DNA of 47,061 nt. It comes from a virus. Made by a program: the position numbers and the translations under genes. The first letter of the stretch is position 1; every line of letters begins with the position of its first letter. Positions 25,533 to 43,836 of this stretch are shown here, one piece after another. Where the stretch lies: positions 1 to 47,061 of the IMG/VR virus record IMGVR_UViG_3300042261_001239; one strand, given 5' to 3'. The notes under the pieces are model-generated. The model had not been told where the DNA came from. It searched no databases and was given only the letters and a program-made list of their open reading frames with translations.

Positions 25533-26871
25533 GAAGAAAGAACTCAGAATACTATTAGCCGTAGAATCCCTAGAAGGAAACGGATCCCAGAAAGAAAAAC
25601 AGAGACTGATCTCCGAAAATTTATCGGAGGAGATGTTATACATCCTGGACGTTTGTTTTAATCCATTCATCACTACCAAACTTCACAAGTTAGATCTCAG
25701 TCAGAATTTAGAGGTTCCTGAGTTTCCTGGGTTTGACACTTTTAAAAACCTGGTAGAGGACCTTAAAAAAGCTCCAGCTGCTAATGACTCCCTAAGATCG
25801 AGAGCTAATGCCCTCATAAATTCTACCATTAACGAGGAAAACTTAGCAGAAGACATGGATCTTCGGGTAATTCTAATGAAGATCCTAACTAAAAGGATGA
25901 ACATCGGGATCGGAGCTAAACTGATTAACAAGGCGATAGGAAGAGAACTAATTCCCGACCCTTCTTTAATGTTAGCTTCGGATGACCAAAAAGAAGTAGC
26001 TAATTGGGATAAAATTTACTGCGAGGAAAAGTATGACGGGGTTCGTGTGATAGCTGTAGGAGACAGGGAAAAAGGTTTTCAGTTCTACACCAGGTCTTTT
26101 AATGAGCTGGATAAATCTAAACTTTCTAGGATCGAGGGAGAATTAGTTCAAGTTTTGAATAATGCGAGTATTGTTGGGGAAGTATTCTTTGATGGGGAGT
26201 TAACCGATTCGAATAGAAAATCTGTTTCGGGAAAAGTAACTCAAATTCTGAAAGGAACCGCTCCAAACGATATTGACAAAGATTTTCTCTTTAATATCTT
26301 CGACCTTGAAAAAGCAGAAGTTTTAAAAACAGGAAAAGGAACTGTTCCATTCGTAAGAAGAAGACAAGAGCTTGCTTTATTAATGGGATTTCTTAAGGAC
26401 GAGTCAAAAGTTAAATTGGCTAGACAGTGGGTGGTAGATTCGATGGAAGAAACCCAGAAAATTTATGGTTTGATAGTTTCAATGGGAGGAGAAGGAGTTA
26501 TTTTAAAACCGGCAGATCACGTCTATGAATGTAAGAGAAGCAGGAATTGGGTGAAGCTAAAACAGATCCAAGATTGTGACCTAGAGATTACTGGCTGGTT
26601 CCCTGGAGAAGGGAAGAGGGAAGGATTTATTGGAGGGTTTATCTGCAAAGACGCCAGTGGAACCCTAGAAGTTCGGATCGGATCTGGATTTACTGATAAA
26701 GATCTTCAAGAACTAAGCCAAGATCCAGACTCTCTCATTGGTAAAATTGCAGCAATCCAATACAATGAGCCAATTACAGACAAGTTTGGAGGACGCAGTT
26801 TGTTCCTCCCCCGCTTCATCGAAATCAGATCCGATAAGACTGTAGCAGATGATATGACTAAGATGTTCTAA
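25531..26871 (+). CDS. 30: ATP-dependent DNA ligase (T4 gp30-like)
   Basis: Seals nicks during replication, recombination and repair. 446 residues (T4 gp30: 487). The nucleotidyltransferase motifs are complete: adenylated lysine in EEKYDGVRV (K167), GEVFFDGELTD (motif III region), GGEGVILKP (motif IV) and NWVKLKQIQ (motif V). A C-terminal OB fold follows. The N-terminal 150 residues resemble the helical domain of gp30. It opens the replication block, with the CGTATATTT box and an inverted repeat over its start codon. Confidence 0.93.
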   Translation: MKKELRILLAVESLEGNGSQKEKQRLISENLSEEMLYILDVCFNPFITTKLHKLDLSQNLEVPEFPGFDTFKNLVEDLKKAPAANDSLRSRANALINSTINEENLAEDMDLRVILMKILTKRMNIGIGAKLINKAIGRELIPDPSLMLASDDQKEVANWDKIYCEEKYDGVRVIAVGDREKGFQFYTRSFNELDKSKLSRIEGELVQVLNNASIVGEVFFDGELTDSNRKSVSGKVTQILKGTAPNDIDKDFLFNIFDLEKAEVLKTGKGTVPFVRRRQELALLMGFLKDESKVKLARQWVVDSMEETQKIYGLIVSMGGEGVILKPADHVYECKRSRNWVKLKQIQDCDLEITGWFPGEGKREGFIGGFICKDASGTLEVRIGSGFTDKDLQELSQDPDSLIGKIAAIQYNEPITDKFGGRSLFLPRFIEIRSDKTVADDMTKMF

Positions 26872-26915
26872 AACAAGAAACTAATGGACCCCCAGAACAC
26901 TATAATGTCATATCT

Positions 26916-27863
26916 ATGATTCAGGATCTTCTCACCGAAAAATTAAGACCTAAAGAAATAAGACATATGATCCTCCCCCCGAGGATCCGCAGTCTTTTTG
27001 AAAACAAAGGTCTAAATCACAACGTACTTTTAGCCGGATCTCCTGGCTGTGGAAAAACAACTTTAGCTAAGATTCTAGCTAAAGATCTACCTCACATTTT
27101 CATCAATGTTTCCGACGAGAGCTCGGTAGACACTATCAGGAATAAAATCAATGACTTCTGTTCAAATATTTCTGTCCTAGACGGAAAGTCTTCTAAGAAG
27201 GTAGTGATTTTAGACGAGTTTGATGGAGCTTCAGACCAGTTCTATAAAGCACTAAGGGGAACGATTGAAAAGTTCGCAGGCAACACGAGATTCGTTGCTA
27301 CGTGCAATTATATCAATAAGGTCCCAGATGCAATTCAAAGTAGATTTGAAGTTATCAATTTTGATCCTGTAAACTCTGAAGAGGAAGAGGCTATCAAGGA
27401 CGAATGGAAATCTAGAGTTAGACTAATTTTAACTAAAATGGGAATATCTATCGAAGATGACTCCTTGTCAGCTTTCGAGAAAACTTATTTCCCGGATTTC
27501 AGGTCTGCCTTAAACAGGATCCAATCTTGGTCTATTGAAGGTGTAACAAAGCTAGATCTTGCCAAAGTTAAAGAAGCAAACTGGTCTTATGAGGACCTTT
27601 ATAAAATGTTAATGACTTCTAAGGACCCTGTTAATAACTATCAAGTTATTGTTGGTCAATATTCAACCAAAGTTGATGATGTTATGACCTCTCTTGGAAG
27701 TGAGTTTATCGACTGGATTGTTAAAAACCATCCGGACAAATCTAAGATCATCCCAGCAGTTATTGTTTTAGTTGCTTCTCATCAAGCTCAGAGAATTGTG
27801 GTTATCGACCCTGTTGTTTCTCTGCTCTCCCTATTTTTCCAAATCCAAAAACTAATAGACTAA
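26916..27863 (+). CDS. 44: Sliding clamp loader ATPase subunit (T4 gp44-like)
   Basis: AAA+ ATPase that opens and loads the sliding clamp onto DNA. 315 residues (T4 gp44: 319). Walker A is GSPGCGKTT (41-49), Walker B VVILDEFDG (96-104), sensor 1 TCNY (near 129-132), and SRFEVINF carries the SRF motif of the family. The N-terminus EKLRPKEIRHMILPPRI is typical. The preceding sequence carries CACTATAATGTCATATCT, possibly a promoter. The sliding clamp itself (gp45) is not in this window. Confidence 0.93.
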   Translation: MIQDLLTEKLRPKEIRHMILPPRIRSLFENKGLNHNVLLAGSPGCGKTTLAKILAKDLPHIFINVSDESSVDTIRNKINDFCSNISVLDGKSSKKVVILDEFDGASDQFYKALRGTIEKFAGNTRFVATCNYINKVPDAIQSRFEVINFDPVNSEEEEAIKDEWKSRVRLILTKMGISIEDDSLSAFEKTYFPDFRSALNRIQSWSIEGVTKLDLAKVKEANWSYEDLYKMLMTSKDPVNNYQVIVGQYSTKVDDVMTSLGSEFIDWIVKNHPDKSKIIPAVIVLVASHQAQRIVVIDPVVSLLSLFFQIQKLID

Positions 27864-28177
27864 TGGACTTATTACCAGAAAAAATAAAAAGAAAAGGTTT
27901 TACCTATGAGCTAGAAAAGAGAGGAAATAAAGCTCTCATGTACCGTCAGATAGACGATGAAGATGGAATTTTAATTGCCTATGAAGTTTTTAAGATTAAA
28001 GTAGACCCGCCAAAGGTTGTTTTTGGAATTCCTCTAAATGAAAGGGAAGTTTTTCCTGCCAATGAAGATTTCGGAAAATGGGCTTGGGCTTGTAGAGACA
28101 AGGATAGGGCAGAAAGAAGATTTCAGGGGTTAGAGGTTTCTTCAGACGGAAACCCGGAGGAGGAAGAAGATGAGTAA
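27863..28177 (+). CDS. Hypothetical phage protein
   Basis: 104 residues, overlapping the clamp loader stop (TAATG). It contains YEVFKIKVDPPKVVFG and REVFPANEDFGKWAWACRDK followed by a helix with ERRFQGL. This 'YEV-F ... P-x-x-E-x-F/P-x-n-x-x-FG-x-x-AW' arrangement occurs in small phage proteins of unknown function. The C-terminus is acidic (EEEEDE). The position is that of gp62 in T4, but length and sequence do not match gp62. Overlaps the next gene by 8 bases. Confidence 0.7.
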   Translation: MDLLPEKIKRKGFTYELEKRGNKALMYRQIDDEDGILIAYEVFKIKVDPPKVVFGIPLNEREVFPANEDFGKWAWACRDKDRAERRFQGLEVSSDGNPEEEEDE

Positions 28178-28514
28178 GTCGGCTATTTTAGCCGTTTTGC
28201 TTATTATAGTTGGCCAGGCAGGAGCTTGGTTCCAACAGTTTTCTCAGTCTAGATTCGAATGGATGAAGAATAATCTTTGGGTTAATATTTTCATCATTGG
28301 ATCTATAGTATCCTGCTCTTTTGTTTTTGCAGCAAAATACGGGATGGAGTCTTTTGGGAGTGCTTGGTCTTATAGATTGGTCCAGTTTTGCATTGGTGTG
28401 TTTGTTTTTACCTATTTAACTCAAGTTTTTCTTGGGGAGAATATTTCGGTTAAGAACGGAATTTGTATAGGCCTATCCGTTCTAATTATTTTAATCCAGG
28501 CCTTTTGGAAATAA
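28170..28514 (+). CDS. Small four-helix membrane protein
   Basis: 114 residues, almost entirely hydrophobic: helices at about 4-22, 36-57, 68-88 and 94-113. The arrangement and size recall small multidrug/DMT-type half-transporters, but no key residue confirms this. It overlaps the previous gene by 8 bases and ends 3 bases before the kinase, so it is embedded in the replication operon. Function unknown. Confidence 0.7.
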   Translation: MSKSAILAVLLIIVGQAGAWFQQFSQSRFEWMKNNLWVNIFIIGSIVSCSFVFAAKYGMESFGSAWSYRLVQFCIGVFVFTYLTQVFLGENISVKNGICIGLSVLIILIQAFWK

Positions 28515-28517
28515 AAA

Positions 28518-29036
28518 ATGAAAAAAAGATTAATTATTGTAGGAAAAGGGGGGTCCGGAAAGGACCACTTAAGAAAAATTTTAGTAGAAAAGGGATTTAG
28601 GTATTGCATCTCTCATACGACGAGACCCATTAGAGAAGGGGAAGAAAACGGAAAAGACTATTGGTTTGTATCAAGTTCTGAACTACCTTCGATGGCGAAT
28701 GACTTTTATGAAGCCGTTTATTTTAATAACTGGTTCTATGGGACTTCGATAAAGGAGTTCTATTCTTCTAATCTTTTCATTATGACCCCGAAGGGAATTT
28801 CTAAATTAAAGTCAGAAGATAGGGAAGAGTCTGTGGTGGTTTATCTAAACATAGATGAGGAAACTAGAAAGAAAAGACTTAGAGAAAGAAGAGATGCAGA
28901 CGATGTGGAAAGAAGGCTTCAAGCAGACTTCCACGACTTCCACGAGTTTGAAGATTTTGACTATGAAATAAAAGACCCATCTTTTACCGACATAGGAGAA
29001 ATTGGGACCGTATCTTTCTATACAAGCCATGATTAA
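28518..29036 (+). CDS. Guanylate-kinase-like nucleoside monophosphate kinase
   Basis: Probable (d)NMP kinase supplying dNDPs for phage DNA. 172 residues, short for guanylate kinase (about 200). P-loop GKGGSGKDH (residues 9-17), then the GMP-binding signature HTTRPIREGEENGKDYWFV, an EAVYFNNWFYGT segment (GMK: NxYGT), and RRDADDVERRL in the lid region. The lysine-to-aspartate change after GSGK is unusual for GMKs (often GKST). It overlaps the FEN nuclease start by 8 bases. Confidence 0.85.
   Translation: MKKRLIIVGKGGSGKDHLRKILVEKGFRYCISHTTRPIREGEENGKDYWFVSSSELPSMANDFYEAVYFNNWFYGTSIKEFYSSNLFIMTPKGISKLKSEDREESVVVYLNIDEETRKKRLRERRDADDVERRLQADFHDFHEFEDFDYEIKDPSFTDIGEIGTVSFYTSHD
29006..29018 (+). 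promoter_or_regulatory. Possible non-late promoter box before the FEN nuclease
   Basis: GACCGTATCTTTC, matching the GACCGTATATT box with one or two changes, 10 bases before the ATG at 29029. It lies inside the kinase coding region, so codon constraint is an alternative explanation. Confidence 0.3.
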
Positions 29037-30165
29037 TATACTAGTAGACGGCAATTACATCTTTCACAAAACCTTTGGGGTTTTTGGTGGATTTGGTGTT
29101 AAAAATCCAGCGGAAGTTTTAGGAACTCCTGGAGAGCAAGCAATGTTTATTCGAAAAGTCTCAACTGACCTTTGTGCAGGTCTTAAACTCCTTCCACAAG
29201 GGGGAAGGCTGATCTTTACTTCCGATAGCAGATCCTGGAGAAAAGACGTGGAAATAGAAGATGGAGGGTATAAATCTAACAGAGTTAAAGATGAAACAGT
29301 AGACTGGACAATATTTTTTGACCTGATGACAGAGTTCGGACATCAGCTAGAGTCCCAAGGGTTCATCTTTTCTAAAACTAAGGGAGCAGAAGGGGATGAC
29401 CTCCTTTATTTTTGGTCAGATCATTTTAACTCTCTCGGAGAGAACTGCATCATTATCAGCGGAGATAAGGACATGCACCAATTGGCAAGACATAATGATA
29501 AAGGATGGACTGTAATCTGGAATAACAACTCCAAAAACAACATATTGGCGGTTCCCCCCGGATGGGAAGAAAATTGGGTTAACAAAAATGAATCCATCTC
29601 TATCTTTGACATGGGAGCTGCAATCTCACCAGACAAGGAAAAGATCAAAGAGTTTTTGAAGAAGGTAACCATCGAAGAAGTTAAAAGAAGAGATTTTGTT
29701 TTCAATAAGATGCTTACTGGAGACAAAGGAGATGCAGTTCCTGGGGTTTGGTACACTGCAGCTCCCGGAGGAAGATTTAATGGAATTACACCTAAAAAGG
29801 CAGAACAGATATTAGAGTCCCTAAATCAGTCTAAGTGGAAAGAGTCTAAGTTTATAGACATGCTGCAGGACCAGGAATTCCTTTCCTGGATATCTGGATT
29901 TGTTCTTAGGATTCTAAAAGATGTTGACAACTCGGAAAACAGACAAAAAGTATCTAAAAATCTTCTTAGAAATTATACTCTAATGTGGCTAGATAGAAGC
30001 GTAATGCCTGAGTTTGTTACCGAAAATTGCACCTCAGAAATTTCTAGAGGAATGGAACTTCCTAAGAAGAACGTAACTACAGACAGGATAAAGCTTCTGG
30101 AAGGTACTTCTTGGGTTGTCACCCCCTCGGCTCCAAAAGCTTTTGACCCTTTTTCTAATTTCTAA
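29029..30165 (+). CDS. rnh: 5'-3' exonuclease / RNase H (T4 rnh-like, FEN family)
   Basis: Removes RNA primers and flaps. I start at ATG 29029 because the family core begins at once (MINILVDGNYIFHK, D7); the 9 codons upstream overlap the kinase. 378 residues (T4 RNase H: 305). Metal-site acidic residues appear in order: D7, D66 (SDSRSWRKD), E121-D123-D124 (GAEGDDL), D146 and D148 (SGDKDMHQLA), D232 and D235 (TGDKGDAVPGV). The YKSNR segment after D66 is typical. A C-terminal region beyond T4 length is present. It ends one base into the next ATG (TAATG). Confidence 0.9.
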   Translation: MINILVDGNYIFHKTFGVFGGFGVKNPAEVLGTPGEQAMFIRKVSTDLCAGLKLLPQGGRLIFTSDSRSWRKDVEIEDGGYKSNRVKDETVDWTIFFDLMTEFGHQLESQGFIFSKTKGAEGDDLLYFWSDHFNSLGENCIIISGDKDMHQLARHNDKGWTVIWNNNSKNNILAVPPGWEENWVNKNESISIFDMGAAISPDKEKIKEFLKKVTIEEVKRRDFVFNKMLTGDKGDAVPGVWYTAAPGGRFNGITPKKAEQILESLNQSKWKESKFIDMLQDQEFLSWISGFVLRILKDVDNSENRQKVSKNLLRNYTLMWLDRSVMPEFVTENCTSEISRGMELPKKNVTTDRIKLLEGTSWVVTPSAPKAFDPFSNF

Positions 30166-30590
30166 TGGAACTATTTGACGTAATTAAAAAGATTTTCAAT
30201 AAAAAAGGATGGGACGACGTTGGAAGAAACGATAAAGTTCGGAACTTTTTTATGATTAACCGAATCATGTCTATACAATGGCCTATCCAAGCTCACCAGT
30301 TTAACCACACTAAGGTTTCTCCAGCTCCCGTAGCGGATTGGTGGCACGGAACCATGTCCAACTATTACAGCAAAGTTCCAGGATGGATTTTTACTAAGAC
30401 AAAAAAGAAAGAAGGGAAAGAAGAAAAAAAGATAGATTTTTCCTCCTACGAGGAAGCAGAGTCTTTTGTTAGATCCAGATTTGAAATTTCTAAAAGAGAA
30501 ATATCCGAAATGAAAAAATTCTACCCGGAGAAGTATGAATCTTGGATCAAAGAAATATCTGAGCAACTAAAATCTATCAACAAAGATTGA
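30165..30590 (+). CDS. Possible clamp loader small subunit (gp62-type)
   Basis: 141 residues. The start ELFDVIKKIFNKKGWDD followed by FFMINRIMSIQWPIQAHQFN resembles proteins annotated as the clamp loader small subunit in distant T4-type phages ('F-L-x-x-I-x-x-K-x-W ... FMINR-x-x-S-x-x-p-x-x-x-x-x-x-N'), rather than T4 gp62 itself. The C-terminus is helical (EISEMKKFYPEKYESWIKEI). Location in the replication block between FEN nuclease and other genes, 2.3 kb from gp44, fits. Assignment from memory of the pattern; hypothetical is the safe alternative. Confidence 0.5.
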   Translation: MELFDVIKKIFNKKGWDDVGRNDKVRNFFMINRIMSIQWPIQAHQFNHTKVSPAPVADWWHGTMSNYYSKVPGWIFTKTKKKEGKEEKKIDFSSYEEAESFVRSRFEISKREISEMKKFYPEKYESWIKEISEQLKSINKD

Positions 30591-30604
30591 AAATATATAA
30601 GAAG

Positions 30605-31150
30605 ATGAAGAAGGAACATTCTAAGTTGATGGAGAAGGTTCTCCAAAGTTTAGACTGGGATAGTATCCTAGAGATAAATAGAGTTCTAAGGATTGGAACT
30701 GGAATGGGAAGTGAAATAGTTCCCGGGGTTAAGAAAAAACCCTTTGGTGAGAACATAACTAAAAATGATTTTAAATCAGAACTTAGAGCTCTGATTAAAT
30801 ACTCTATCGAAAATCATGTCCCCCAGCTAAATTATGGAAACTGGATTATTTATTGGGTTAGTGACGACTGGGACGTTGAAGTGACTTTTCCTCAAGAAAT
30901 GGATGACGACGCTGTAGACGATCTAGACGATGATGATACTTTCTTTGTGATGGAACCTCAATTGGAAGTAATATATTCCCCGCAAAGGATTAGTTTAAAG
31001 GGAGAAATTTCGGACCAGGAAGGGGAGAGAAAAGACCACGTCAACCTAGAAGAAATGTTAGAAAAAGCTATCAAAAGTGAAGACTATGAGCTTGCTACTA
31101 AAATTAGAGATCTAATTTCTCAAAATAGAGAAAAAAAATTAGATAAATAG
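30605..31150 (+). CDS. Hypothetical acidic protein with a UVR-like C-terminal helix pair
   Basis: The frame is open from TTG 30587, but I prefer ATG 30605, giving 181 residues (MKKEHSKLMEKVLQSL). The centre is acidic (DDDAVDDLDDDD). The C-terminus, LEEMLEKAIKSEDYELATKI followed by RDLI, looks like the UVR helical motif of UvrB/UvrC (L-x-x-x-x-x-x-A-x-x-x-E-x-YE-x-A-x-x-x-RD-x-I), a protein-binding element. No catalytic domain. Function unknown. Confidence 0.7.
   Translation: MKKEHSKLMEKVLQSLDWDSILEINRVLRIGTGMGSEIVPGVKKKPFGENITKNDFKSELRALIKYSIENHVPQLNYGNWIIYWVSDDWDVEVTFPQEMDDDAVDDLDDDDTFFVMEPQLEVIYSPQRISLKGEISDQEGERKDHVNLEEMLEKAIKSEDYELATKIRDLISQNREKKLDK
31142..31150 (+). promoter_or_regulatory. 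Possible late promoter box
   Basis: GATAAATAG at the end of the previous gene, 18 bases before the TTG start at 31169; identical to the box before the tube gene. Confidence 0.35.
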
Positions 31151-31168
31151 AGAAAATAAATCTTTTAC

Positions 31169-31654
31169 TTGAAGCATATTATTCCCATTAATGAATTTTT
31201 TCAGGACGTTGGAGTCTTCGGGGACACTTACGGGTACGGGGGTGCTAACGGGGTTTTTAAGGTTACTTATAAACCTTATAAAGACCTTTCTGTCTCGGTG
31301 GGTCCCGATCCAGATGTTCCTCGGTATAAAAAAGGATCCGAATATCACGTGGGAGACTATGTCACTGCAAAGCCCATCAATTCTAAGAAAAGGATCGCGG
31401 GAATGATAATCAAGAACGTTCTCAGTAGCGACGGAAAAAACTACAAGTACTTTGTTCAGATTAAGAACAAAAACAAGAAGGAGGAAGAAGTTGTTGAAGT
31501 TGTTCCTAGCACTATCAAATTCCTAGAAGGAGGAGATAGAGGATTTAAACAGAGAGCTGCTAAATTTAACATGGATGCTGCAGCAGGAGACGTTTACAAT
31601 TCTCCCTACGTTTATAATAATAACGTAGGTGGAGAGCAAGTAGATGGATCTTAA
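31169..31654 (+). CDS. Hypothetical protein with SH3/KOW-like segment
   Basis: 161 residues from a TTG start at 31169; no in-frame ATG exists before residue 70. The N-terminus MKHIIPINEFFQDVG resembles the window's capsid-targeting-like starts, but the protease site is not clear (INE before F). A central segment (EYHVGDYVTAKPINSKKRIA, then IKNVLSSDGKNYKYFVQIK) resembles the KOW-like part of the 15847 protein. The tail is asparagine- and tyrosine-rich. If cargo, it is the only one inside the replication block. Function unknown. Confidence 0.62.
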   Translation: MKHIIPINEFFQDVGVFGDTYGYGGANGVFKVTYKPYKDLSVSVGPDPDVPRYKKGSEYHVGDYVTAKPINSKKRIAGMIIKNVLSSDGKNYKYFVQIKNKNKKEEEVVEVVPSTIKFLEGGDRGFKQRAAKFNMDAAAGDVYNSPYVYNNNVGGEQVDGS

Positions 31655-31700
31655 TTAACTGTATTTTGAAACTACTAGTTCCCAGAAGCGTATAACTGAT

Positions 31701-32588
31701 ATGCTTTTGAACAGAACTGCCCACAGAATAGGATATCTGGGACCTATGAAATCCTGGGATGGTAAAAAAGTAGAAACTCTAAACCAACTCCTAGATTTTT
31801 TAATTTTACATTTAAATCACAACCAGAACAGAAAAATTCAAATGTTCTGTGTTGATGTTCAGGATATTGACTTCAAAGGAATAGATTTTTCCGGGATAGA
31901 AGAAGATTCTTTAGAGCAGGAAAAAATAGACATAGTTTCTAATTTTATCTCTTTTAACAAATCGAGATTATTTTTTTCCCTCTCTAAGAGCTATTTTTTA
32001 GGAAGTCAGATCTCTGAAGTGGTAGAGGAGACTAAAGAAATACTGAAAAAAATCTCGTCCTTTATGGATCTTTTAGGGTCTAAAGACCCTTCTATTTTAA
32101 TAAGAGTTGGAAGTGCTTATGGAAACAGGAAAGAAACTTTATCTAGATTTTGTTCCGAGGTGGAATCTCTTCCGGAAAGTGTATCTTCTAGACTGGCAGT
32201 AGTTAATGATGAAAAACCCAGTCTTTTTTCCATTACGGATCTTTTATCCGGTGTTTTTTACTCTGTAAAAATTCCTATTTGTTTTAGATTTCTCCCCCAC
32301 AGTTTTAATGATGGCGGGCTAACTTTTAGAGAGGCTTTGTTTCTAAGCTCCTCTACTTGGCCGGTAGGGGTTAAGCCTCTTTTTATTTATGCAGAATCTG
32401 AAGTAATTGATGAGTTTGGTCTTCCTACTAGTTCTCACCCTTCTGAACATCTCCAGTTTAGAATTCCGACATTTAATCTAGAGATAGATGTTATTGTAGA
32501 TTCAAAGGGAAAAGACCTTTCTTGTGTAAAGTATATGAAAGAAAGTAGGGCTTTAAAGCCTATAGTTATCAACAGAGTTCCGGAGTAA
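31701..32588 (+). CDS. UvdE-like TIM-barrel protein, probably catalytically impaired
   Basis: 295 residues with the layout of UV-damage endonuclease UvdE: RIGYLGPM start, ILIRVGSAYGNRKETLSRF (family: HPGGAYGDK-x-x-x-x-x-RF), SRLAVVNDEKPSLFSITDLL (family: RL-x-LENDD), IPICFRFLPHSFNDGGLT (family: P-x-x-FD-x-x-HH-x-x-N). At several metal-ligand positions the usual residue is changed: H to R135, E to V168, D to R196 and the first H of HH to P199. The fold seems kept and the active site altered. It is followed by Fpg, so a repair-related role is plausible. Confidence 0.7.
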   Translation: MLLNRTAHRIGYLGPMKSWDGKKVETLNQLLDFLILHLNHNQNRKIQMFCVDVQDIDFKGIDFSGIEEDSLEQEKIDIVSNFISFNKSRLFFSLSKSYFLGSQISEVVEETKEILKKISSFMDLLGSKDPSILIRVGSAYGNRKETLSRFCSEVESLPESVSSRLAVVNDEKPSLFSITDLLSGVFYSVKIPICFRFLPHSFNDGGLTFREALFLSSSTWPVGVKPLFIYAESEVIDEFGLPTSSHPSEHLQFRIPTFNLEIDVIVDSKGKDLSCVKYMKESRALKPIVINRVPE

Positions 32589-32600
32589 GACCGTATATTC
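32589..32600 (+). promoter_or_regulatory. Putative non-late promoter box before Fpg
   Basis: GACCGTATATTC, 14 bases before the ATG at 32615, sharing GACCGTATATT with the box before ligase. Confidence 0.5.
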
Positions 32601-32614
32601 TATCATACATTATT

Positions 32615-33412
32615 ATGCCAGAATTAGCTGAAGTTAAATTAACGGCGGACTACGTCAATAAGATGGTCCGAGGAAAAAAATTTGATAGGGTTAGGAAGAA
32701 CCCTTCTCACAAAGGAAAACTATTTGATCACCCAGATCTATTTGAGATTTCTGCAGTTTCTCGGGGAAAGGAATTTAAATTATTATTAAATCATCAAGGG
32801 GGGACTGAGCATCTTCTCATGACTATGGGGATGTCTGGGTATTTTAAGTTAACCCCTTTCGGAGAAGAGGTGAAGCATTCCCACCTTATGTTTGATTCCA
32901 CAGATGGAACGACTCTCTCGTTTGTAGACGTGAGAAGATTTGGTAAATGGGGATTCGGGGATTGGAATAAACTCCGGGGGCCTGACCCAGTTTATGAACA
33001 CGAAGAGTTTTACTCTAACATCATGAACAATCTTGAAAAGAAGGATTTTTATAAGCCCCTTCACGAGGTTTTAATGAACCAAAAGTACTTTAATGGGATA
33101 GGAAACTATCTAAGAGCTGAGATTGTTTATCGTCTTGAAGACGTTGATCCCTTCCAGCCTGCAAAAAATGCGATAAAAGGACCTAAAGGAAAAATTCTTC
33201 TGGATCTTTGTAAAGAAATACCACACCAAGCCTACCTCCTGGGGGGAGGAAATCTTTATACCTGGGAAACTCCCCAAGAATTAGAAATTCATACTTCTCT
33301 TGGATCCTGGACCGACTGGATGAAGTGCTATGGAAACAAAAGTATGGCTTCGGAAGTAGACAATATTGGTCGTAGATTTTGGTATGACTCTAAATGGAAA
33401 AGAAATGATTAA
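32615..33412 (+). CDS. Formamidopyrimidine-DNA glycosylase / endonuclease VIII family (Fpg/Nei)
   Basis: Base-excision repair glycosylase/AP lyase, 265 residues. The catalytic N-terminus is MPELAEV with P2 and E3 (usual MPELPEV). K52 in SRGKEF and the MTMGMSGYF strand match the family. The helix-two-turn-helix is LMNQKYFNGIGNYLRAEIVY. The C-terminal zinc finger is degenerate: only one cysteine remains (KCYG), and the segment ends IGRRFWYDSKWK, so this looks like a 'zincless finger' member as in NEIL1-type enzymes. Overlaps the exonuclease start. Confidence 0.9.
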   Translation: MPELAEVKLTADYVNKMVRGKKFDRVRKNPSHKGKLFDHPDLFEISAVSRGKEFKLLLNHQGGTEHLLMTMGMSGYFKLTPFGEEVKHSHLMFDSTDGTTLSFVDVRRFGKWGFGDWNKLRGPDPVYEHEEFYSNIMNNLEKKDFYKPLHEVLMNQKYFNGIGNYLRAEIVYRLEDVDPFQPAKNAIKGPKGKILLDLCKEIPHQAYLLGGGNLYTWETPQELEIHTSLGSWTDWMKCYGNKSMASEVDNIGRRFWYDSKWKRND

Positions 33413-34103: not shown

Positions 34104-34127
34104 GATTTAAACATTAAGAAAGATAAG

Positions 34128-34169
34128 AAAGGATTGTTTGGATATATAAAGTCCAAATAATCCTTTTTT
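34128..34169 (+). terminator. Intrinsic terminator whose loop contains a late promoter box
   Basis: AAAGGATTGTTTGG (34128-34141) pairs with CCAAATAATCCTTT (34153-34166): 14 bp including one G-U pair, loop of 11 bases, then a T run to 34169. The box GATATATAAAG occupies the end of the left arm and most of the loop. Confidence 0.85.
34141..34151 (+). promoter_or_regulatory. Putative late promoter box inside a terminator loop
   Basis: GATATATAAAG, 18 bases before the GTG start at 34170. A transcript starting from it would begin within the right arm and so would not form the terminator hairpin. Confidence 0.45.
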
Positions 34170-34964
34170 GTGGAGATAGTAAAATCCTTTCAAGACTACT
34201 TTTTATTTGAGAAGCAAATAAATGCTTTTTATCAGGATGAACTGAATCCTAAATTTTGGACCAGGAGAGTTTCGAAGGACGGATCAAAAGAGAAGTGGGT
34301 TCTGGACCCTCTAGTAAGAAAAAAACTTTTAAAAATTGGTCAAGAGTTTTATGAAAGTCTAAAGGATGTTGTGGGTAGAGTTCCAATCTCGGATATTCAA
34401 CTGACCGGGTCCTTAGCAAACTACAACTGGACCGATCTTTCGGACTTGGACGTCCATATTCTTGTAGATTTTGATAAAATTAAAGCTCCAAGAAAAGTAA
34501 TCGAAGCTGCAGGAGAGGGGGCGAAATTTATGTGGAACATTAGACACGATATAAAGTTAAGAGGTCATGATGTTGAAGTTTTCTTACAGGATTCTGACGA
34601 GAGACACCATATTACGGGCTTATTTTCTCTAAAAGAAAATCTTTGGATTAAGAAGCCACAGTTCGACCCTCCAAAAACTGATGAGGACGATGTAAACAAA
34701 AAAGCAGAAGCAATAGCAAGCGAAGTATCAGCATTAGAAAGCAAATTGATTTCCTCCTACTCTTTACCCAAAGAATCTAGAAATCTTTTCAAGAGGGCTA
34801 AATCCTTAAAAAAGAAAATAAGTAAGATGAGAAGAGAAGGACTTGAAAAGGGAGGGGAGTTTTCTGTTGGCAACTTAGCCTTTAAAAAGCTAAGAAATGA
34901 TGGATATATAAGTAAGCTTATAGACGTCATGTCCAGGGCTTACGATAGAATTTATAGCGAATAA
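34170..34964 (+). CDS. Pol-beta-type nucleotidyltransferase with capsid-targeting-like N-terminus
   Basis: 264 residues from a GTG start directly after a terminator T run; GTG is preferred because the N-terminal motif MEIVKSFQDYFLFEK follows. That motif matches the window's capsid-targeting pattern, with possible cleavage LFE before K15. The enzyme core is LTGSLANYNWTDLSDLDVHI: G80-S81, then D92 and D94 as metal ligands (GS-x-x-x...D-x-D). A later DVEVFLQD gives the third acidic strand. Such enzymes transfer AMP or other nucleotides to proteins, RNA or small molecules. If packaged, it could modify a host target on ejection, as T4 Alt does by ADP-ribosylation (inference). It overlaps the next gene by one base. 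Confidence 0.78.
   Translation: MEIVKSFQDYFLFEKQINAFYQDELNPKFWTRRVSKDGSKEKWVLDPLVRKKLLKIGQEFYESLKDVVGRVPISDIQLTGSLANYNWTDLSDLDVHILVDFDKIKAPRKVIEAAGEGAKFMWNIRHDIKLRGHDVEVFLQDSDERHHITGLFSLKENLWIKKPQFDPPKTDEDDVNKKAEAIASEVSALESKLISSYSLPKESRNLFKRAKSLKKKISKMRREGLEKGGEFSVGNLAFKKLRNDGYISKLIDVMSRAYDRIYSE
34903..34912 (+). promoter_or_regulatory. Possible internal late promoter box
   Basis: GATATATAAG inside the end of the nucleotidyltransferase gene, 51 bases before the next start. It also encodes Gly-Tyr-Ile in a plausible coding context, so it may be chance. Confidence 0.25.
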
Positions 34965-37477
34965 TGAAGTTAATATTTTTACCCAAAGGAGGAGCAGGAA
35001 TTTCTGATGGCGGAAGTTTCCCTATTATGGAAGTTCCAATGTCAGCCGAGGGCGCAGAGAAAACTACCCTCAACGACTTTCAATGGTGGGCTCCTACCGA
35101 TAAATGGCAAGAGTGGCTGAAAAAAAATCCTAGGTCCTGGAAAGCGGAATCTGAGGTTTTCGATCAGGAGGAAGTCTACAACATGATAATGGAGTCCTTC
35201 AACTCTTATGATGAGGACCCGGAGTCGGTTATGGGATTTGAGGAGTTCTCAAGCTTGTTCGAAGAGGAAGAAAAAAAGGAGAACGAAGAGGGTCAAGTTT
35301 CAGTCTCCAAAGAAGAAGCTTCTAAAAAATTAACGAAGTTTACTTTTGCCTATAATAAACTTCTGGAAGAAAATAAAATTGAGCTAAATTTAAGTCTAGA
35401 TAAACTTACCCCAAGTCAGTTTTACGCACTTATTTTAGATATGGTAGACGACAAGGGGCAGGACGTTCCTGAGACTAGAAATGCCTACAAGATGAAGATT
35501 TTGCCTTCTGACGCAAAAGCTAAGTTCTATCTTGCACAAATGACGGAAACTGCTCTAACTGGACCCATACCAGATGATCAACCAATAGGCACTACCTTCG
35601 CTAAAGTTGCTGGGTTTGTTGGGAGAGCCGCTCTTGGCGGAGCTCTAGCAGTTTTAGGAATTTCTCTTGCTTACAAGATGGTTGGTTCTGCTTTAACAAG
35701 ACTAGGAATTAGATCCTGGTTTACAAAGATTATTCCTAACGCTTTTAAGTCTGGTTCAATCCGGGGTGCTTCATCACTAGCTAGAGGATTTAAATCTGCT
35801 AAATATTTTTTTACCTCTATTGGAGGAATTAGACCCTTCCTGATGGGAGCTGGAAGATTTAAGGGATTTATCCCCTCTCTTTTAAAAAGCGGGAAATTTA
35901 TGTCAGCTATTAGATCTGGAAGTTCTGCAGTAGGGGCAGCAAGAGCTGCAGCCGGAGCAGGAAAAGCTACTAATCCAGTTGGGTGGGCTATAACAGCTTT
36001 AACTGTTGGTCAGCAGCTTTATAACTGGTTCAGTTCTAATCAAGCTCCTAGATATGGAGAAATAGAAGACGATGGTGTTGGAGCTCAAAACTCTTTTTCT
36101 CCTGGATCTATTCCCGACGGACAGAATATTACAGTCTGCTGGACTCAAGAAGCTGGGTCTAGTGGATTTCTTTCTTTTTTAGCCAGCATAGTTATCGCTA
36201 ACGATACAAGAACCACCATGGAACTGGTGAAGTTGGGGAACTTTAACGGAAAAGCAGTTTTTTACTTGGTTGATGTTCACTCAGAGTCATATAAAAAACT
36301 TCTGGAAGAAAACTCTATGATCTTAATTTTCTTTGATCAGGGAGCTAAATTTGAGCATGGATTTTTTGATAATGACGACTTGAAATTAGAAGTTTTGAGT
36401 ATTAAAGATGCTGCTGGACTTTCCGCTAATACTATTTTCCATGGATACTGTGCATGGGAGGATTTCCAAAGCGCTTATGAAAAAGCAGACGACAAAGCTC
36501 TAGAAGTTCCAGAAAATGCTCCGGACGAATATTCTTTCTACTTTAAGTATGGAAAATCTAATAGAGAGATAAATGTTACTGGAAAACTAGTAAGAGATTT
36601 AAGCTCGATAGACACGGTTAAAAATACTTTTAATTTTGAGAACCCTAACGAAGGAGGAGATGAAAAGCCTACTACCGAGTCATATTCCTTCGATATTTCT
36701 AAGGATGTAATGTCATTCTTTGAATTTTCTGAATCTGGATTTCCAACTTCTTTAATGTTACTAGAAGATGAAGAAGAAAAAGCCGCTGGAGAAGTTTCTG
36801 ATGCAAAACTAACCGAAACCCAAAAAATTGCTCCCTACTCAGTTGAAAAAATAGAATATGCTGATAAAGCTTTAGAAGACCAAGAACTTCCTGATCTTCT
36901 AACATTTATCATACCTAGCGAGTATTTGGAAGCAGAGGATAATCAGAGTATTGATGTTGATCCCATCCAAGATGTAACAGTAAAATCACCTAAAAAAGGA
37001 GTTATAGTTATAGAAACTCAAGAAGCACCAGAACCGGTTCCAGTTGAAGTTGTTGGAGCTACCGGAGCTACAGGTTCCCAAGAACCTGAGGTAGAGGGAG
37101 GAGTTCCGGTTGAAGTAACTAAAGACGAGGTAAAAGTAAAATATAGAGACAATCCGGAAATTCTTAATGACTTAGGAATTCCTGATGTTACTAAGATTAA
37201 AGACAAAGATAGAGACGATAAAATTAAATTCCTAGATTTTATAACTCCAGAAGAGAAAGAAGAACTAGGAATAGGAGACTGGGACTTTATTAAAAAAGTT
37301 AAAATATCTAAAGACGGGAAAGGAAATCCTTTAGTTATTAGATTCAAAGCTGGTGGGATGGCGAAAGATAGAAAGAGAAAAATTAAATCCAGCGATGAAA
37401 ATTTCGATACTGCTTTAAAGGTAGCTGAAAGAATTTTAGCTGGATTTAAAGAAGCAGAGGATAAAGAAGAAGATTAA
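34964..37477 (+). CDS. Large predicted internal virion protein with hydrophobic domain
   Basis: 837 residues, starting on the last base of the previous stop. Residues 1-75 look globular. An internal segment MGFEEFSSLFEEEE (about 90-103) resembles the capsid-targeting motif plus gp21 site (LFE before E101), as if residues 1-100 were a removable propeptide. Residues 215-355 are rich in hydrophobic, glycine/alanine helices (GRAALGGALAVLGISLAYKM; AARAAAGAGKATNPVGWAI), suggesting membrane interaction. The second half is acidic, with a KSPKKGVIVIETQEAPEPVP linker and a DNA-binding-like basic end (GGMAKDRKRKIKSS). It may be ejected with DNA to help cross the envelope (inference). Confidence 0.72.
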   Translation: MKLIFLPKGGAGISDGGSFPIMEVPMSAEGAEKTTLNDFQWWAPTDKWQEWLKKNPRSWKAESEVFDQEEVYNMIMESFNSYDEDPESVMGFEEFSSLFEEEEKKENEEGQVSVSKEEASKKLTKFTFAYNKLLEENKIELNLSLDKLTPSQFYALILDMVDDKGQDVPETRNAYKMKILPSDAKAKFYLAQMTETALTGPIPDDQPIGTTFAKVAGFVGRAALGGALAVLGISLAYKMVGSALTRLGIRSWFTKIIPNAFKSGSIRGASSLARGFKSAKYFFTSIGGIRPFLMGAGRFKGFIPSLLKSGKFMSAIRSGSSAVGAARAAAGAGKATNPVGWAITALTVGQQLYNWFSSNQAPRYGEIEDDGVGAQNSFSPGSIPDGQNITVCWTQEAGSSGFLSFLASIVIANDTRTTMELVKLGNFNGKAVFYLVDVHSESYKKLLEENSMILIFFDQGAKFEHGFFDNDDLKLEVLSIKDAAGLSANTIFHGYCAWEDFQSAYEKADDKALEVPENAPDEYSFYFKYGKSNREINVTGKLVRDLSSIDTVKNTFNFENPNEGGDEKPTTESYSFDISKDVMSFFEFSESGFPTSLMLLEDEEEKAAGEVSDAKLTETQKIAPYSVEKIEYADKALEDQELPDLLTFIIPSEYLEAEDNQSIDVDPIQDVTVKSPKKGVIVIETQEAPEPVPVEVVGATGATGSQEPEVEGGVPVEVTKDEVKVKYRDNPEILNDLGIPDVTKIKDKDRDDKIKFLDFITPEEKEELGIGDWDFIKKVKISKDGKGNPLVIRFKAGGMAKDRKRKIKSSDENFDTALKVAERILAGFKEAEDKEED

Positions 37478-37541: not shown

Positions 37542-39608
37542 ATGTATTCAGTTTCCTCAATTAACGAACAGATGGTTTTCATTCTGGAAAAGCAGAATCA
37601 AATCCTAGAAGCATCTAAGGAGATGACTTCAGAAGGAAAGGATTATGTCCTTAAAGGGATTGCTGCTCAATTCGGAAAAGAAAACAATAATAATAGAATC
37701 TACGAGGAAGGAGAATATCTTCCGCACCTAGATTATCTTAAAGACAAAATCAAACAAAAAAGACTAGTTGGTGAATTAGATCACCCCGAGAAGTTTGATA
37801 TTTCCCTAAGCAACGTTTCACACGTAATCGAAGATTTAGAGTACGACAAAAGTGGAAGGGTCCTTAACATTAAAGTTAGACTTCTAGATACTCCAGCAGG
37901 ACAAATTGCAAAAAGACTTGTTGATGCTGGTGTGCCCCTTTCTATTTCTTCCAGAGCAGCAGGTAACGTTGGACCAGACAAAAAGGTTCAAATTAAGAAA
38001 ATTTTTACTTATGATCTAGTAGCGGATCCCGGCTTCCAAGACGCTCAACTAGAGAGAGTATATGAAAGCGCTGGATTTTCTCACGAAGATTTTATATATA
38101 AGAGAGAAAAAAGCGTTGTTAGCAGATTAGAATGTCTAAACGAATCATTAGGACTAAAAAATACAGATTCTTTGAGGATATATAATGTTAACGACAACGA
38201 AGAATTTAAAAAAATATTCAATACAGATAAAAATAAATCCGCTATTATGGAGAATACCAACAGAGAATTTGTAAGTGCTGAAGAACTAAACCAGTACACA
38301 ATGTTCTTAAAGAAAGAAATGGATGCTATGAAGGCTGAAATTTTTAGTTTAAGATCAGGTAGAGTTGAAGAAGGTCAAGCACTAAGCTTTAACAAGCCTG
38401 AGCCTGCTTTAGGAAACGGCTACAACAACGGCCCTTCTGCTACTTCAGATCAATCTATCGAAGACAGAGTTGCTAGACTAGAAAAATATTCTAATTACTT
38501 AGCTGAGACTCTAGATGGAGCTATTAAGTATGGAGAATATTTGGCTGAAAATTTAGACAGCAGCATCAACTACTCTAAATATCTAGCAGAGAACTTAGAC
38601 AAGAACATTTCTTACTCTAAGTATCTAGCAGAAAACGTAGACAAGTCTATCTCTTATTCTGAATATGTTGCTGAAAATCTTGACAAGTCTGTCGAGTACT
38701 CTAAGTATCTAGCAGAAAAAGTTGACGAGTCTATCCAATATTCTGAATATGTAGCTGAAAAAGTAGATACAAACATTTCTTACTCTGAGTACCTAGCGGA
38801 AAATCTAGACAAAGGAATTGCTTATTCTGAATACCTAGCAGAAAAGCTAGATCAGGGAATTGGTTACGCTGAATACCTTGGAGAAAAATTAGACCAAGGA
38901 ATTGGATACACCGAGTATGTTGCAGAAAACCTAAATAAGGGTATCGCTTACTCTGAATATCTAGCAGAAAACCTAAACAAAGGTATTGCTTACTCCGATT
39001 ATTTGGCGGAAAAAGTTAAAAATAACATCGCTTATTCTGAGTATATCGCAGAAAGCGTAAATAATAATCTCGGAGATTCTATCAACGAGAATGCAAGAGA
39101 ACAAGCAGATTTTGCTTCTAATGCAGGACTATTCGAATCAGGTTTTGCTGGTGACTATTCAACAGTTTCCGGTAAGATTGATGCACTAATAGAGTCAGTT
39201 CAAACCCAGAAAACTGAAACGCTACAAAGAAATGCGGCTGTTAAGTTCCAGTCGCCTGCTCAAACCCAAAAAGCAGACCAGGTTCTAAACGAGAACTTGA
39301 ACGAAAATGCTAATCCAAGCTCAGGTTACAAATTCATTGATGAAGCTCCAGAGGAGTATGCTCAGATTTGGGAATCTCTAACTGAAGGTCACAAGCAATC
39401 TATCATTGCTCAAGCAGCTTTCTACAATCTAGAAACCCCTTATCAGATTAAAAACTTCTGGTCAACCAGACAGCTAGGAAGAAACATCGGACTTCAAAAA
39501 CTCACCGAGAACGAAAACATCGAAACCAACGAGACCCCCGTAACTCCAAGAGGATATTCTAACGATTATCTAAATGCAGTTGCTAAGGCTCTTGAAGGAA
39601 GATTCTAA
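37542..39608 (+). CDS. 21: Prohead core protease (T4 gp21-like) fused to a scaffold-like coiled-coil
   Basis: 688 residues; T4 gp21 has 212 and the scaffold gp22 269. Residues about 30-170 are the protease: GELDHPEKFDI with catalytic H81, a VRLLDTPAGQIAKRL segment, and VPLSISSRAAG with the catalytic serine (S136/S137). Residues 316-511 are 14 tandem copies of a 14-residue unit (type YSEYLAENLDKGIA), i.e. two heptads each, a coiled coil. The C-terminal 90 residues (EYAQIWESLTEGHKQSII) form a separate domain that could bind the capsid protein. I infer that protease and core scaffold functions are combined. It lies directly before the capsid gene. LNE and ILE steps suggest self-processing. Confidence 0.85.
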   Translation: MYSVSSINEQMVFILEKQNQILEASKEMTSEGKDYVLKGIAAQFGKENNNNRIYEEGEYLPHLDYLKDKIKQKRLVGELDHPEKFDISLSNVSHVIEDLEYDKSGRVLNIKVRLLDTPAGQIAKRLVDAGVPLSISSRAAGNVGPDKKVQIKKIFTYDLVADPGFQDAQLERVYESAGFSHEDFIYKREKSVVSRLECLNESLGLKNTDSLRIYNVNDNEEFKKIFNTDKNKSAIMENTNREFVSAEELNQYTMFLKKEMDAMKAEIFSLRSGRVEEGQALSFNKPEPALGNGYNNGPSATSDQSIEDRVARLEKYSNYLAETLDGAIKYGEYLAENLDSSINYSKYLAENLDKNISYSKYLAENVDKSISYSEYVAENLDKSVEYSKYLAEKVDESIQYSEYVAEKVDTNISYSEYLAENLDKGIAYSEYLAEKLDQGIGYAEYLGEKLDQGIGYTEYVAENLNKGIAYSEYLAENLNKGIAYSDYLAEKVKNNIAYSEYIAESVNNNLGDSINENAREQADFASNAGLFESGFAGDYSTVSGKIDALIESVQTQKTETLQRNAAVKFQSPAQTQKADQVLNENLNENANPSSGYKFIDEAPEEYAQIWESLTEGHKQSIIAQAAFYNLETPYQIKNFWSTRQLGRNIGLQKLTENENIETNETPVTPRGYSNDYLNAVAKALEGRF
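38487..39074 (+). repeat. Tandem 42-bp repeat (14 units) encoding a coiled coil
   Basis: Fourteen consecutive 42-bp units, each coding a 14-residue block with invariant tyrosines at positions 1 and usually 4, and consensus YSEYLAENLDKGIA. Synonymous codons vary between units, so the repeat is old and kept at protein level. It is inside an open frame, and is not a CRISPR array. Confidence 0.92.
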
Positions 39609-39643: not shown

Positions 39644-41362
39644 ATGAAACTTATTAATGAAAAAGAAATCTTCGATACCTGGGCTCCTATCATCGAGTCT
39701 AAAGCAGGTGTTACAGATTCAAGCAAACAAGCATGGCTTTCTAAGTATTGCCACTACCACTCATTGAACGAATCAGCTGGTGCTTACAACTCTCTAGCAG
39801 TTGTTAACGGTATGGGTTCAGTTCAACCTCCCGTGTTCCCTGCAGCTACTCAGGCAGCTTCTACCGGTTCACTTTCACCTAACGCTGGTTTCTACAGCTC
39901 AACATGGCAAGGTTCTGGTGACAAATTCCCATCACTTCTTCCTTTGGCAATTCAGGTTGCTGCGAAGACTGTTGGATTTGACATCGTTCCAGTTATTCCT
40001 ATGTCTGGTCCTTCAGGAATCCTTTCTTACCTAGACTACGTTTACGCAGGTGGTAAGCTTAGCCCTAATGCTAACCAGGTTGGAACTACTGCTGCTGAAG
40101 CTCTTGCAGTTGCTCCTACCATGATTAAAGTTCCAGTAGGATCTACAGCTGCTGCTTTCGTAGTAGGAACTGAGTACTACATCACTAACCCTACTTCTGC
40201 TGGTGCTTATTTGACCACTGATTTCGTAGGTTACTCAAGAATTGATGGTTTCCCTATCTTCAGAATCACTGGAGTTACTGCAGGTGAAACTGTTGCTTCT
40301 GTATGCGTAAGCGCTGGTGGAGCTCTAATCGGTACTACGGTTAACACAATCACTGCTGGAGGTTTAACTACTGGCCCAGCTCAGCTTGTAAAAGCTCTTG
40401 AAGATCACATCCAAGGTTTCTCTGGTGCTGGTTTCTATGATGACCAAGACTACCAAGGTCCTTACGTTGATGGTACCAAGACCTACAACCCAATGCTAAG
40501 AAGCGTAGCGGAAAGCACTTACTACAACTCAATGGGTCTAACCACCTTCACTAAGTTCGTAGAAGCTGACACTTTCCAGGTTGCTGCTTCTGTAACAACT
40601 GAGCAAATCCAAGATCTTAACAAGCAGTTCGGTATCGACGTTATCTCTATGATCGAGAACGCACTTGTTAACGAGGTTTCTCAGGCAATCAACAAGCACA
40701 TCCTTTCTAGAGCATTCCAACTTGGATGGTCTAACTGCGTAAACTTCAACGCTATCGAAGGTCAGAACCTAAACCTAAACCTAGTTCTAGGTGGTGCTAC
40801 TGGTTCTGCTAACGGTCTATCTTACATGGGTAAGACTGACAGCCTTGAAACTATGACTCTACCTGCAGGACCTGCTAACGGAGGTTACGAGAACTTGTCA
40901 ACTCTACAGAGAAGACTATTCTCTAGAATCCTTGCAGCTGCTAACGTTGTAGCTAACAGAGGTAGAAGAGGACCTGCTAACTTCATCGTTACCAACGCTA
41001 ACCTAGCGTCTTCGATGCAGGACATCAGCCAGTTCACCTTCGCTCCTTTCTCTAACACTCTAACTCAAAACAACGGAACTCTATATCCTGTAGGTTCATT
41101 GGCTGGTATGACTGTATATGTTGACCAGAACATGAAGTACAACGATACCAGAATCCTAGTTGGTAGAAAAGGTGGAGATGACGAGCCAGGTCTTAAGTTC
41201 ATGCCTTACATGATGGCGGAGTCAATCCAGACCATCTCTGAAGGTACTATGTCTCCTAAGATCGCAGTTAAGAGCAGATACGCACTAGTTGAAGCAGGTT
41301 TCCACCCAGAAACTATGTACTTCACTTTCTACGTACAAGTTCCAACTGGAGGATTGAACTAA
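39644..41362 (+). CDS. 23: Major capsid protein (T4 gp23-like)
   Basis: Forms the HK97-fold hexamers of the head. 572 residues (T4 gp23: 521). The N-terminal prodomain resembles T4 (MKLINEKEIFDTWAPIIESK; T4 KAELLNKWKPLLEG) and should be removed at LNE before S44, the same kind of site as in T4 (before A66). The body has FDIVPVIPMSGPSGILSYLD (T4: FDICGVQPMNSPTGQVFALR), a KYNDTRILVGRKG region, and RYALVEAGFHPETMYFTFYV near the end. Codons here favour C-ending forms more than elsewhere, consistent with high expression. An A-rich leader precedes it; a terminator follows. Confidence 0.95.
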   Translation: MKLINEKEIFDTWAPIIESKAGVTDSSKQAWLSKYCHYHSLNESAGAYNSLAVVNGMGSVQPPVFPAATQAASTGSLSPNAGFYSSTWQGSGDKFPSLLPLAIQVAAKTVGFDIVPVIPMSGPSGILSYLDYVYAGGKLSPNANQVGTTAAEALAVAPTMIKVPVGSTAAAFVVGTEYYITNPTSAGAYLTTDFVGYSRIDGFPIFRITGVTAGETVASVCVSAGGALIGTTVNTITAGGLTTGPAQLVKALEDHIQGFSGAGFYDDQDYQGPYVDGTKTYNPMLRSVAESTYYNSMGLTTFTKFVEADTFQVAASVTTEQIQDLNKQFGIDVISMIENALVNEVSQAINKHILSRAFQLGWSNCVNFNAIEGQNLNLNLVLGGATGSANGLSYMGKTDSLETMTLPAGPANGGYENLSTLQRRLFSRILAAANVVANRGRRGPANFIVTNANLASSMQDISQFTFAPFSNTLTQNNGTLYPVGSLAGMTVYVDQNMKYNDTRILVGRKGGDDEPGLKFMPYMMAESIQTISEGTMSPKIAVKSRYALVEAGFHPETMYFTFYVQVPTGGLN

Positions 41363-43568: not shown

Positions 43569-43836
43569 ATACCAAAATTTCCTTTTTGAAGAAGAGAGCA
43601 TATCCACTCAAATCAGTAACACTAGACTAGAGATGTCTAAAGTTAACGACGAGGGAAAAGCAATAAGATCTAAGTATGATAATGCCTTAGGCTCTGCTAG
43701 TAACGACGAAGCAAAAAAACTCAAGGCGGAGTCGGATTTCTTAGCAGCTAAATCTCAGATCTATGGAAAAATGATCCCTATCATGAATAAGCTAAAATCT
43801 CAGCTAGATCAAAAACTTACCGAATTAAAAGCATAA
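43549..43836 (+). CDS. Small coiled-coil predicted capsid-targeted protein
   Basis: 95 residues, starting inside the end of the previous gene. The N-terminus MGNLITKYQNFLFEEE matches the targeting pattern (compare MEIVKSFQDYFLFEK at 34170), with LFE before E15 as possible cleavage. The rest is a helical hairpin (RLEMSKVNDEGKAIRSKY; FLAAKSQIYGKMIPIMNKLK). The ATG overlap implies translational coupling. Probably a short relative of the two preceding proteins. Confidence 0.68.
   Translation: MGNLITKYQNFLFEEESISTQISNTRLEMSKVNDEGKAIRSKYDNALGSASNDEAKKLKAESDFLAAKSQIYGKMIPIMNKLKSQLDQKLTELKA

Follow-up and report, generated by a model that had tools for sequence, protein, structure and literature searches.

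The virus record IMGVR_UViG_3300042261_001239 of IMG/VR, analyzed here as a whole (47,061 bases, the window), encodes at positions 34170 to 34964 a predicted nucleotidyltransferase (NTase) whose first residues resemble the peptides that direct proteins of phage T4 into the head. Our proposal is that this protein belongs to a phage-only family, common in T4-like and huge phages, whose members are injected and nucleotidylate a host or defense protein, a new chemistry of packaged takeover parallel to that of T4 Alt; we put the probability of this reading at roughly 0.4. Its parts differ in strength. Packaging in the head, which an earlier note on this DNA had predicted, is very probable, being well supported by the targeting peptide, a late-promoter motif, a neighborhood of head genes, and detection of a homologue in virions. 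Action on the host or its defenses is probable to a lesser degree, and the entire chain through an injected enzyme acting on either, whatever the class of target, is a shade less probable again. Of all phage proteins, those packaged in the head act earliest in the infected cell, yet the known enzymes among them are few.

A phage-restricted gene family

34170 to 34964, plus strand: NTase coding sequence, GTG start at 34170, stop codon at 34962-34964, 264 amino acids

The open reading frame (ORF) is a genuine gene, and its family is widespread, confined to phages, and undescribed. It matches phrog_36119, of unknown function, over nearly its full length (E = 2.6e-39). No in-frame start other than the GTG precedes the NTase core, and this GTG is kept in four relatives (L001, L002, L003, and L005). 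By tblastn the protein has counterparts in 45 phage records, with identity under 60% in every case; the carriers include Prevotella Lak phages, Maribacter phages Molly and Colly, several Synechococcus phages, S-CREM2, S-CRM01, and S-N03 among them, Caulobacter phage Cr30, and uncultured phages of up to 735 kb; a nucleotide search among phage records found zero near relatives of the window. Profile-guided scanning found at least 592 relatives in IMG/VR. Of 84,980 genomes of bacteria and archaea scanned in the same way, only metagenome-assembled ones gave matches, at 11 loci. A cellular origin of the family was considered and rejected, as at least three of these 11 loci (L105, L106, and L109) hold a terminase, so that they are probably phage contigs. 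None of the openly accessible papers searched describes an NTase of the phrog_36119 family as packaged by a phage.

Active site and predicted fold

34407 to 34451, plus strand: NTase core motif G80-S81...D92-x-D94, codons 80 to 94; G80, D92, and D94 invariant in 69 homologues
34575 to 34577, plus strand: third catalytic carboxylate E136 (HDVEVF), codon 136; invariant in the 69, on model strand E133-141
34809 to 34895, plus strand: motif of the C-terminal helical domain, codons 214 to 242; R221, N235, K239, and L241 invariant

Conservation was read from an alignment of 69 NTase homologues, in all of which G80, S91, D92, D94, H96, E136, W159, P163, R221, N235, K239, and L241 are invariant. S81 becomes Gly in the cyanophage branch, and the family signature is therefore G[SG]. 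The GS...DxD core of the earlier note is thereby confirmed, with the ORF and residues G80, S81, D92, and D94 all where it had placed them; to these we add E136 as the third carboxylate. The Pfam family NTP_transf_2 falls below its cutoff on the window protein (E = 0.006), is matched by 62 of the 69 relatives (best E = 7e-6), and is passed at gathering score by the homologue in Synechococcus phage S-CREM2 (21.4 versus 21 bits).

AlphaFold2, given the 69-homologue alignment, modeled the window NTase with a predicted local distance difference test (pLDDT) score of 89.7 and a predicted template modeling (TM) score of 0.78; pLDDT drops below 50 at residues 1-4 and 6-14, and the proposed targeting peptide (residues 1-14) is the one disordered part of the model. 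The earlier note had held that a structure with no metal site would speak against its prediction, and what the model contains is an invariant acidic triad in a confidently predicted Pol-beta-like core. The whole fold is common to the phage proteins (TM 0.74 to 0.86 for the best). PDB sequence searches with profiles gave no significant match. The core is of the classical kind, and the C-terminal helical domain (residues 172-262; motif GEFS..NL.FK.LR) has no good match among solved structures. By sequence and model, the protein has a complete Pol-beta-type active site (G80/S81, D92, D94, and E136) in a Pol-beta-like fold, and we predict with high confidence that it is an active nucleotidyltransferase.

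The solved structures nearest to the model are AAD(9), AadA, ANT(4'), ANT(6), CdnE, and the minimal NTases. This bears on an alternative in which the packaged enzyme inactivates a small molecule or nucleotide signal, either in the manner of aminoglycoside NTases or in answer to cyclic-nucleotide defenses, as the closest folds are those of drug-modifying enzymes and the CdnE cyclase. The full-length matches are weak, however, with E about 1e-3 and a TM of about 0.25, and for the most part reflect the shared core, which by itself reaches a target-normalized TM of up to about 0.5 against minimal NTases. Nor has a phage any use for drug resistance packaged with its DNA, and we consider this alternative improbable.

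An N-terminal peptide resembling a capsid-targeting sequence

34170 to 34211, plus strand: predicted capsid-targeting propeptide MEIVKSFQDYFLFE, codons 1 to 14; proposed protease cut after E14
37542 to 39608, plus strand: gp21-type prohead protease with a fused scaffold region; PF03420, phrog_207

Internal proteins of T4 are drawn into the prohead by a peptide of 10 to 19 residues, which gp21 removes after L/I-x-E (PMC9026906). The start of the window NTase, MEIVKSFQDYFLFE/KQINAFYQDELNP (the slash marks the proposed cut, with K15 first after it), fits this logic, roughly [FY]xx[FY][LIV]xE, and has the form of a propeptide of about 10 to 20 residues ending in [LI]xE. Many divergent members keep the pattern just ahead of the conserved core although their N termini differ, examples being L049 (MKHLKPYTSFINE/GQFYQGELNP), L044 (MRYLNKFTDFINE/SEFYQKGLHP), L031 (MASRIKNFKQWILNE/GEFYQNELNN), and L023 (MDPVKSFSDFLFE/NKVGSFYNDELNP), in all of which the predicted cut would spare the conserved NTase core. 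Among 37 representative members, 25 have the strict pattern, compared to 2.0 ± 1.3 after shuffling of the same N-terminal residues, an excess that is optimistic and to be discounted because the pattern was framed after some examples had been seen and the start codons of this set were hand-picked. An automatic pass over 80 non-redundant members labeled 30 with the pattern, its crude anchor missing several more. Codons 2-19 are under purifying selection, with a ratio of nonsynonymous to synonymous polymorphism (pN/pS) of 0.25 versus 0.18 in the core, which indicates that the peptide is translated sequence.

The pattern extends to other proteins of the same phage, where it is matched by the starts of 7 of the 48 ORFs, internal stretches predicting 2.3; the proteins at 6691, 18879, 43549, and 46239 start with it, and such starts include MRIKSYLEFINE/A, MSRILNFNEFLSE/A, and MGNLITKYQNFLFE/E. 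The scaffold region of the protease fusion holds 14 tandem copies of Y..Y[LVI][AG]E with a period of 14 residues, and the targeting peptide accordingly looks like one scaffold repeat, a resemblance that we infer. Each of these 14-residue repeats is also a potential self-cleavage site.

The N-terminal peptide might instead be merely the ancestral first helix of the enzyme, unrelated to packaging, and cyanophage members do begin with MKKLLSELKLTLQSH..., which can be aligned to the end of the extension. Against such an origin, the model shows disorder in residues 1-14, the pattern persists through changes of sequence and is shared by other proteins of the phage, and some members of the family start directly at the core. 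The disorder together with the purifying selection argues against both an ancestral helix and an untranslated N terminus, and we hold the helix to be quite unlikely.

Three further observations concern possible addresses on other proteins. A cell-wall hydrolase with a CHAP domain (PF05257; 46239-47033) has the targeting-like start MSRILNFNEFLSE/A and is possibly a packaged, injected hydrolase, to judge by that start. Targeting-like N termini on proteins of unknown function at 6691-7227, 18879-19670, 20046-20687, and 43549-43836 make these candidate head cargo or core proteins. NTases L006, L011, and L036, which have no N-terminal peptide, carry a C-terminal extension beginning with the motif-like ENFKT[FY]FEY, a possible C-terminal or internal address.

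A homologue in virions of Synechococcus phage S-CREM2

The S-CREM2 homologue, SCREM2_gp156 (ORF156, 126012-126725), is 31% identical to the window NTase (tblastn E = 2e-23). Mass spectrometry of the S-CREM2 virion identified ORF156, listed as hypothetical, from 6 unique peptides with 15.2% coverage (PMC10665884, Table 3); a text search of that paper returned no "nucleotidyl" and no discussion of ORF156. Besides two large endolysins, the nonstructural proteins named for this virion are an S-adenosylmethionine hydrolase, a kinase, a Cas9-annotated nuclease, and a cytidylyltransferase resembling nicotinamide mononucleotide adenylyltransferase (NMNAT) (PMC10665884). All four of these enzymes carry F..F[LM].E at the N-terminal end; in the nuclease it lies near residue 24, and in the other three it falls inside residues 1 to 10. 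The proteome offers an independent check on the post hoc pattern: over the 211 ORFs of S-CREM2, virion proteins have it more often than the others (Fisher p = 0.006 to 0.009), in support of a packaging role for the motif in this group. The earlier note's description of the NTase start as capsid-targeting-like thus holds up, the resemblance exceeding chance both here and in comparison with the shuffled N termini.

A large NTase family in phages of up to 735 kb is now linked to a virion protein, so far anonymous, from a cyanophage in culture. The suggested rule, [FY]xx[FY][LIV]xE in roughly the first 25 residues together with a late promoter, could serve to predict which proteins uncultured T4-like phages package.

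Two loci of S-CREM2 stand out. The Cas9-annotated virion protein gp12 (L115, 4705-7314; 28 unique peptides) has FASFMAE near its N terminus, which supports its true packaging, and has no Pfam domain at E ≤ 0.01. The consecutive genes gp154-156 (L114, 6555-8672) encode an NMNAT-like protein, a protein of unknown function, and the NTase, all present in the virion proteome, and are a possible cargo operon. The text of the paper on Maribacter phage Molly contains no proteomics.

Late-promoter motif and hairpin at the gene start

34123 to 34171, plus strand: terminator-like hairpin, 21 pairs, U-tract at 34164-34169, running into the GTG start
34141 to 34149, plus strand: late-promoter-like motif GATATATAA, within the hairpin loop

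The sequence GATATATA occurs 13 times on the plus strand of the window and never on the minus strand (0.96 expected). Eleven of the 13 copies lie within 120 nucleotides upstream of gene starts, including those of the sheath, portal, protease/scaffold, and NTase, and none precedes the replication and repair genes at 25531-33411. In 41 of the 80 non-redundant relatives, GATATATA or ATAAATA lies within 60 nucleotides of the NTase start, compared to 2.6% of random windows. Judged by this motif, the NTase is probably expressed late. The T4 late promoter TATAAATA was tried and set aside in favor of GATATATA, having a single match in the window, fewer than chance, and a sigma-70 promoter scan gave no excess over shuffles.

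The hairpin folds at -25.4 kcal/mol (z = -6.25), with none of 200 shuffles as good; the loop limit of the terminator scan missed this long hairpin, which folding detected. Similar sequence stands just upstream of the NTase gene in L001, L003, and L005. Terminator, late-promoter-like motif, and GTG start are packed into fewer than 50 bases (34123-34171).

Genomic neighborhood

34964 to 37477, plus strand: 837-amino-acid protein without assigned function, its start overlapping the stop of the NTase; synteny kept in close relatives
39644 to 41362, plus strand: major capsid protein (gp23 type); PF07068, E = 1.6e-38

Two portals, a gp23-type capsid protein, a gp21-type protease, and further ORFs that we read as terminase, sheath, and tail tube identify the window as a fragment of a T4-like phage. 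In its clade the gene order is UvdE, (Fpg), exonuclease, NTase, 837-amino-acid protein, protease, and major capsid protein. A second group has the NTase between a terminase, which lies on the opposite strand, and the genes for portal, gp4, and protease, and in other relatives it adjoins gp4/protease or a terminase. The 837-amino-acid protein, a possible partner of the NTase, has no Pfam or PHROG match. The adjacent portal proteins (22258-23883 and 23890-25494) both belong to phrog_213, are 50% identical over 501 aligned positions, and possibly form a mixed portal ring.

Proposed mechanism and the evidence against it

Under the mechanism we propose, the NTase would be synthesized late, and its N-terminal peptide, resembling the scaffold repeats, would draw it into the prohead core by co-assembly with the scaffold. 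The prohead protease would then cut after E14, removing the propeptide, and the mature enzyme of about 250 amino acids would be retained in the head with the DNA and enter the cell together with it. There, a two-metal Pol-beta-type site would take a nucleoside monophosphate (NMP) from a nucleoside triphosphate (NTP) and attach it to a target, for which a host or defense protein is the likeliest candidate. Cleavage, injection, catalysis, and target are all steps that we infer. The head-address tag and the presence of a distant relative in phage particles suggest that the enzyme may be injected with the DNA to disarm or reprogram the bacterium.

Several observations weigh against this mechanism. 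The subgroup L006-L012, L036, and L039 has no N-terminal peptide and starts directly at the core, carrying the ENFKT[FY]FEY extension at its C terminus instead. The virion detection comes from a homologue outside the window clade, 31% identical, whose own start is degenerate (MKKLISE/L), and the S-CREM2 authors warn of co-purification (PMC10665884). The GTG of the window NTase has no obvious ribosome-binding site and abuts the terminator. In cyanophages and Cr30 the NTase sits among replication genes, so that synteny with head genes is common but not universal.

The co-purification warning, the late-promoter motif, and the synteny with head genes are also what would favor a role as an assembly factor, an enzyme of the cytoplasm or prohead that is required for the head to mature or be packaged and is not injected, its detection in virions being residual. 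The propeptide pattern, however, is that of retained cargo, as in the T4 internal proteins (PMC9026906), the cyanophage NTases are unlinked to head genes, and the invariant catalytic triad makes a structural role unexpected. We give an assembly factor little credence beside an injected enzyme.

The injected enzyme may have one of three classes of target. A protein is favored, at slightly less than even odds, as Pol-beta NTases of polyvalent proteins have been predicted to be packaged or transferred, protein-modifying NTases of phage-host conflict (PMC5512222), and 28 of the 69 members weakly match the AMPylase domain of SidM/DrrA (SidM_N; E ≤ 0.1, best 1.4e-4). RNA or tRNA is a much less likely target. 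The enzyme would then tail or cap host tRNA, stopping translation as MenT does, or repair RNAs cut by host defense nucleases. Phage Pol-beta NTases are often RNA enzymes, such as RlaP and CCA-adding enzymes (PMC7824862), 53 of the 69 members weakly match the palm domain of mitochondrial poly(A) polymerase (PF22600), and the C-terminal domain has conserved basic residues. Yet the window protein is unmatched by RlaP, CCA-adding, or AbiEii/MenT nucleotidyltransferase profiles at E ≤ 1, and no RNA ligase is annotated near the NTase in annotated loci; we regard the RNA reading as unlikely. A small molecule or nucleotide signal is the least likely target of the three.

Comparison with known systems

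By profile tests the NTase does not fall in the MNT, MenT, RlaP, or CD-NTase families, and it is not a homologue of Alt. Of the families against which the earlier note had proposed to compare it, MNT/HEPN (type VII) and MenT thus do not take it in: NCBIfam MntA matches one of the 69 members (E = 0.0034) and leaves the window protein unmatched, and no HEPN partner is annotated beside the NTase in annotated relatives. PADLOC cyclase models match 4 and 1 of the 69 (best E = 0.0027 to 0.0039), again without the window protein, and the fold match to CdnE is weak (E = 2e-3, TM 0.23). The PADLOC and NCBIfam identities were rejected as weak matches to the core motif only. For the AMPylating families, the third comparison proposed, the outcome is mixed: 28 members have weak SidM_N matches, while the window protein itself is unmatched. 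This resemblance may reflect the shared core motif alone, and the PDB profile match to a SidM/DrrA-type domain (E = 0.019) covers only that motif.

The best PDB fold matches, AAD(9), AadA, ANT, and CdnE, share an NTase core followed by helices but differ in being only 10 to 16% identical. The minimal NTases (MNT/MntA antitoxins, archaeal 2rff, and HI0073) share the core (target-normalized TM 0.3 to 0.5) but have about 100 amino acids, no C-terminal helical domain, and no targeting peptide. The Pol-beta NTases of polyvalent proteins resemble the window protein as predicted packaged or transferred enzymes of phage-host conflict but are minimal domains in firmicute conjugative elements, fused to ArdC-N. 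S-CREM2 ORF156 and phrog_36119 belong to the same family as the window NTase, and ORF156 was detected in virions, although its targeting start is degenerate and its neighbors are replication genes.

The T4 internal proteins IPI-IPIII, with their capsid-targeting sequence, share a brief propeptide at the N terminus that ends in [LI]xE, variable cargo behind a conserved tag, and, judged by the promoter motif, late expression. The known ones are small inhibitors of restriction enzymes, whereas the window protein is larger and is an enzyme, with an NTase site. Alt of T4 is an ADP-ribosyltransferase. The earlier note had cast the NTase as a possible Alt-like, host-modifying effector, and the likeness stands for the presumed strategy, a head-packaged enzyme trimmed by the prohead protease and injected. 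It does not extend to the protein, which has another fold, no homology to Alt, and no ADP-ribosyltransferase family among its Pfam or PHROG matches up to E = 1. In place of NAD-dependent ADP-ribosylation, the window enzyme would be expected to carry out NTP-dependent NMP transfer.
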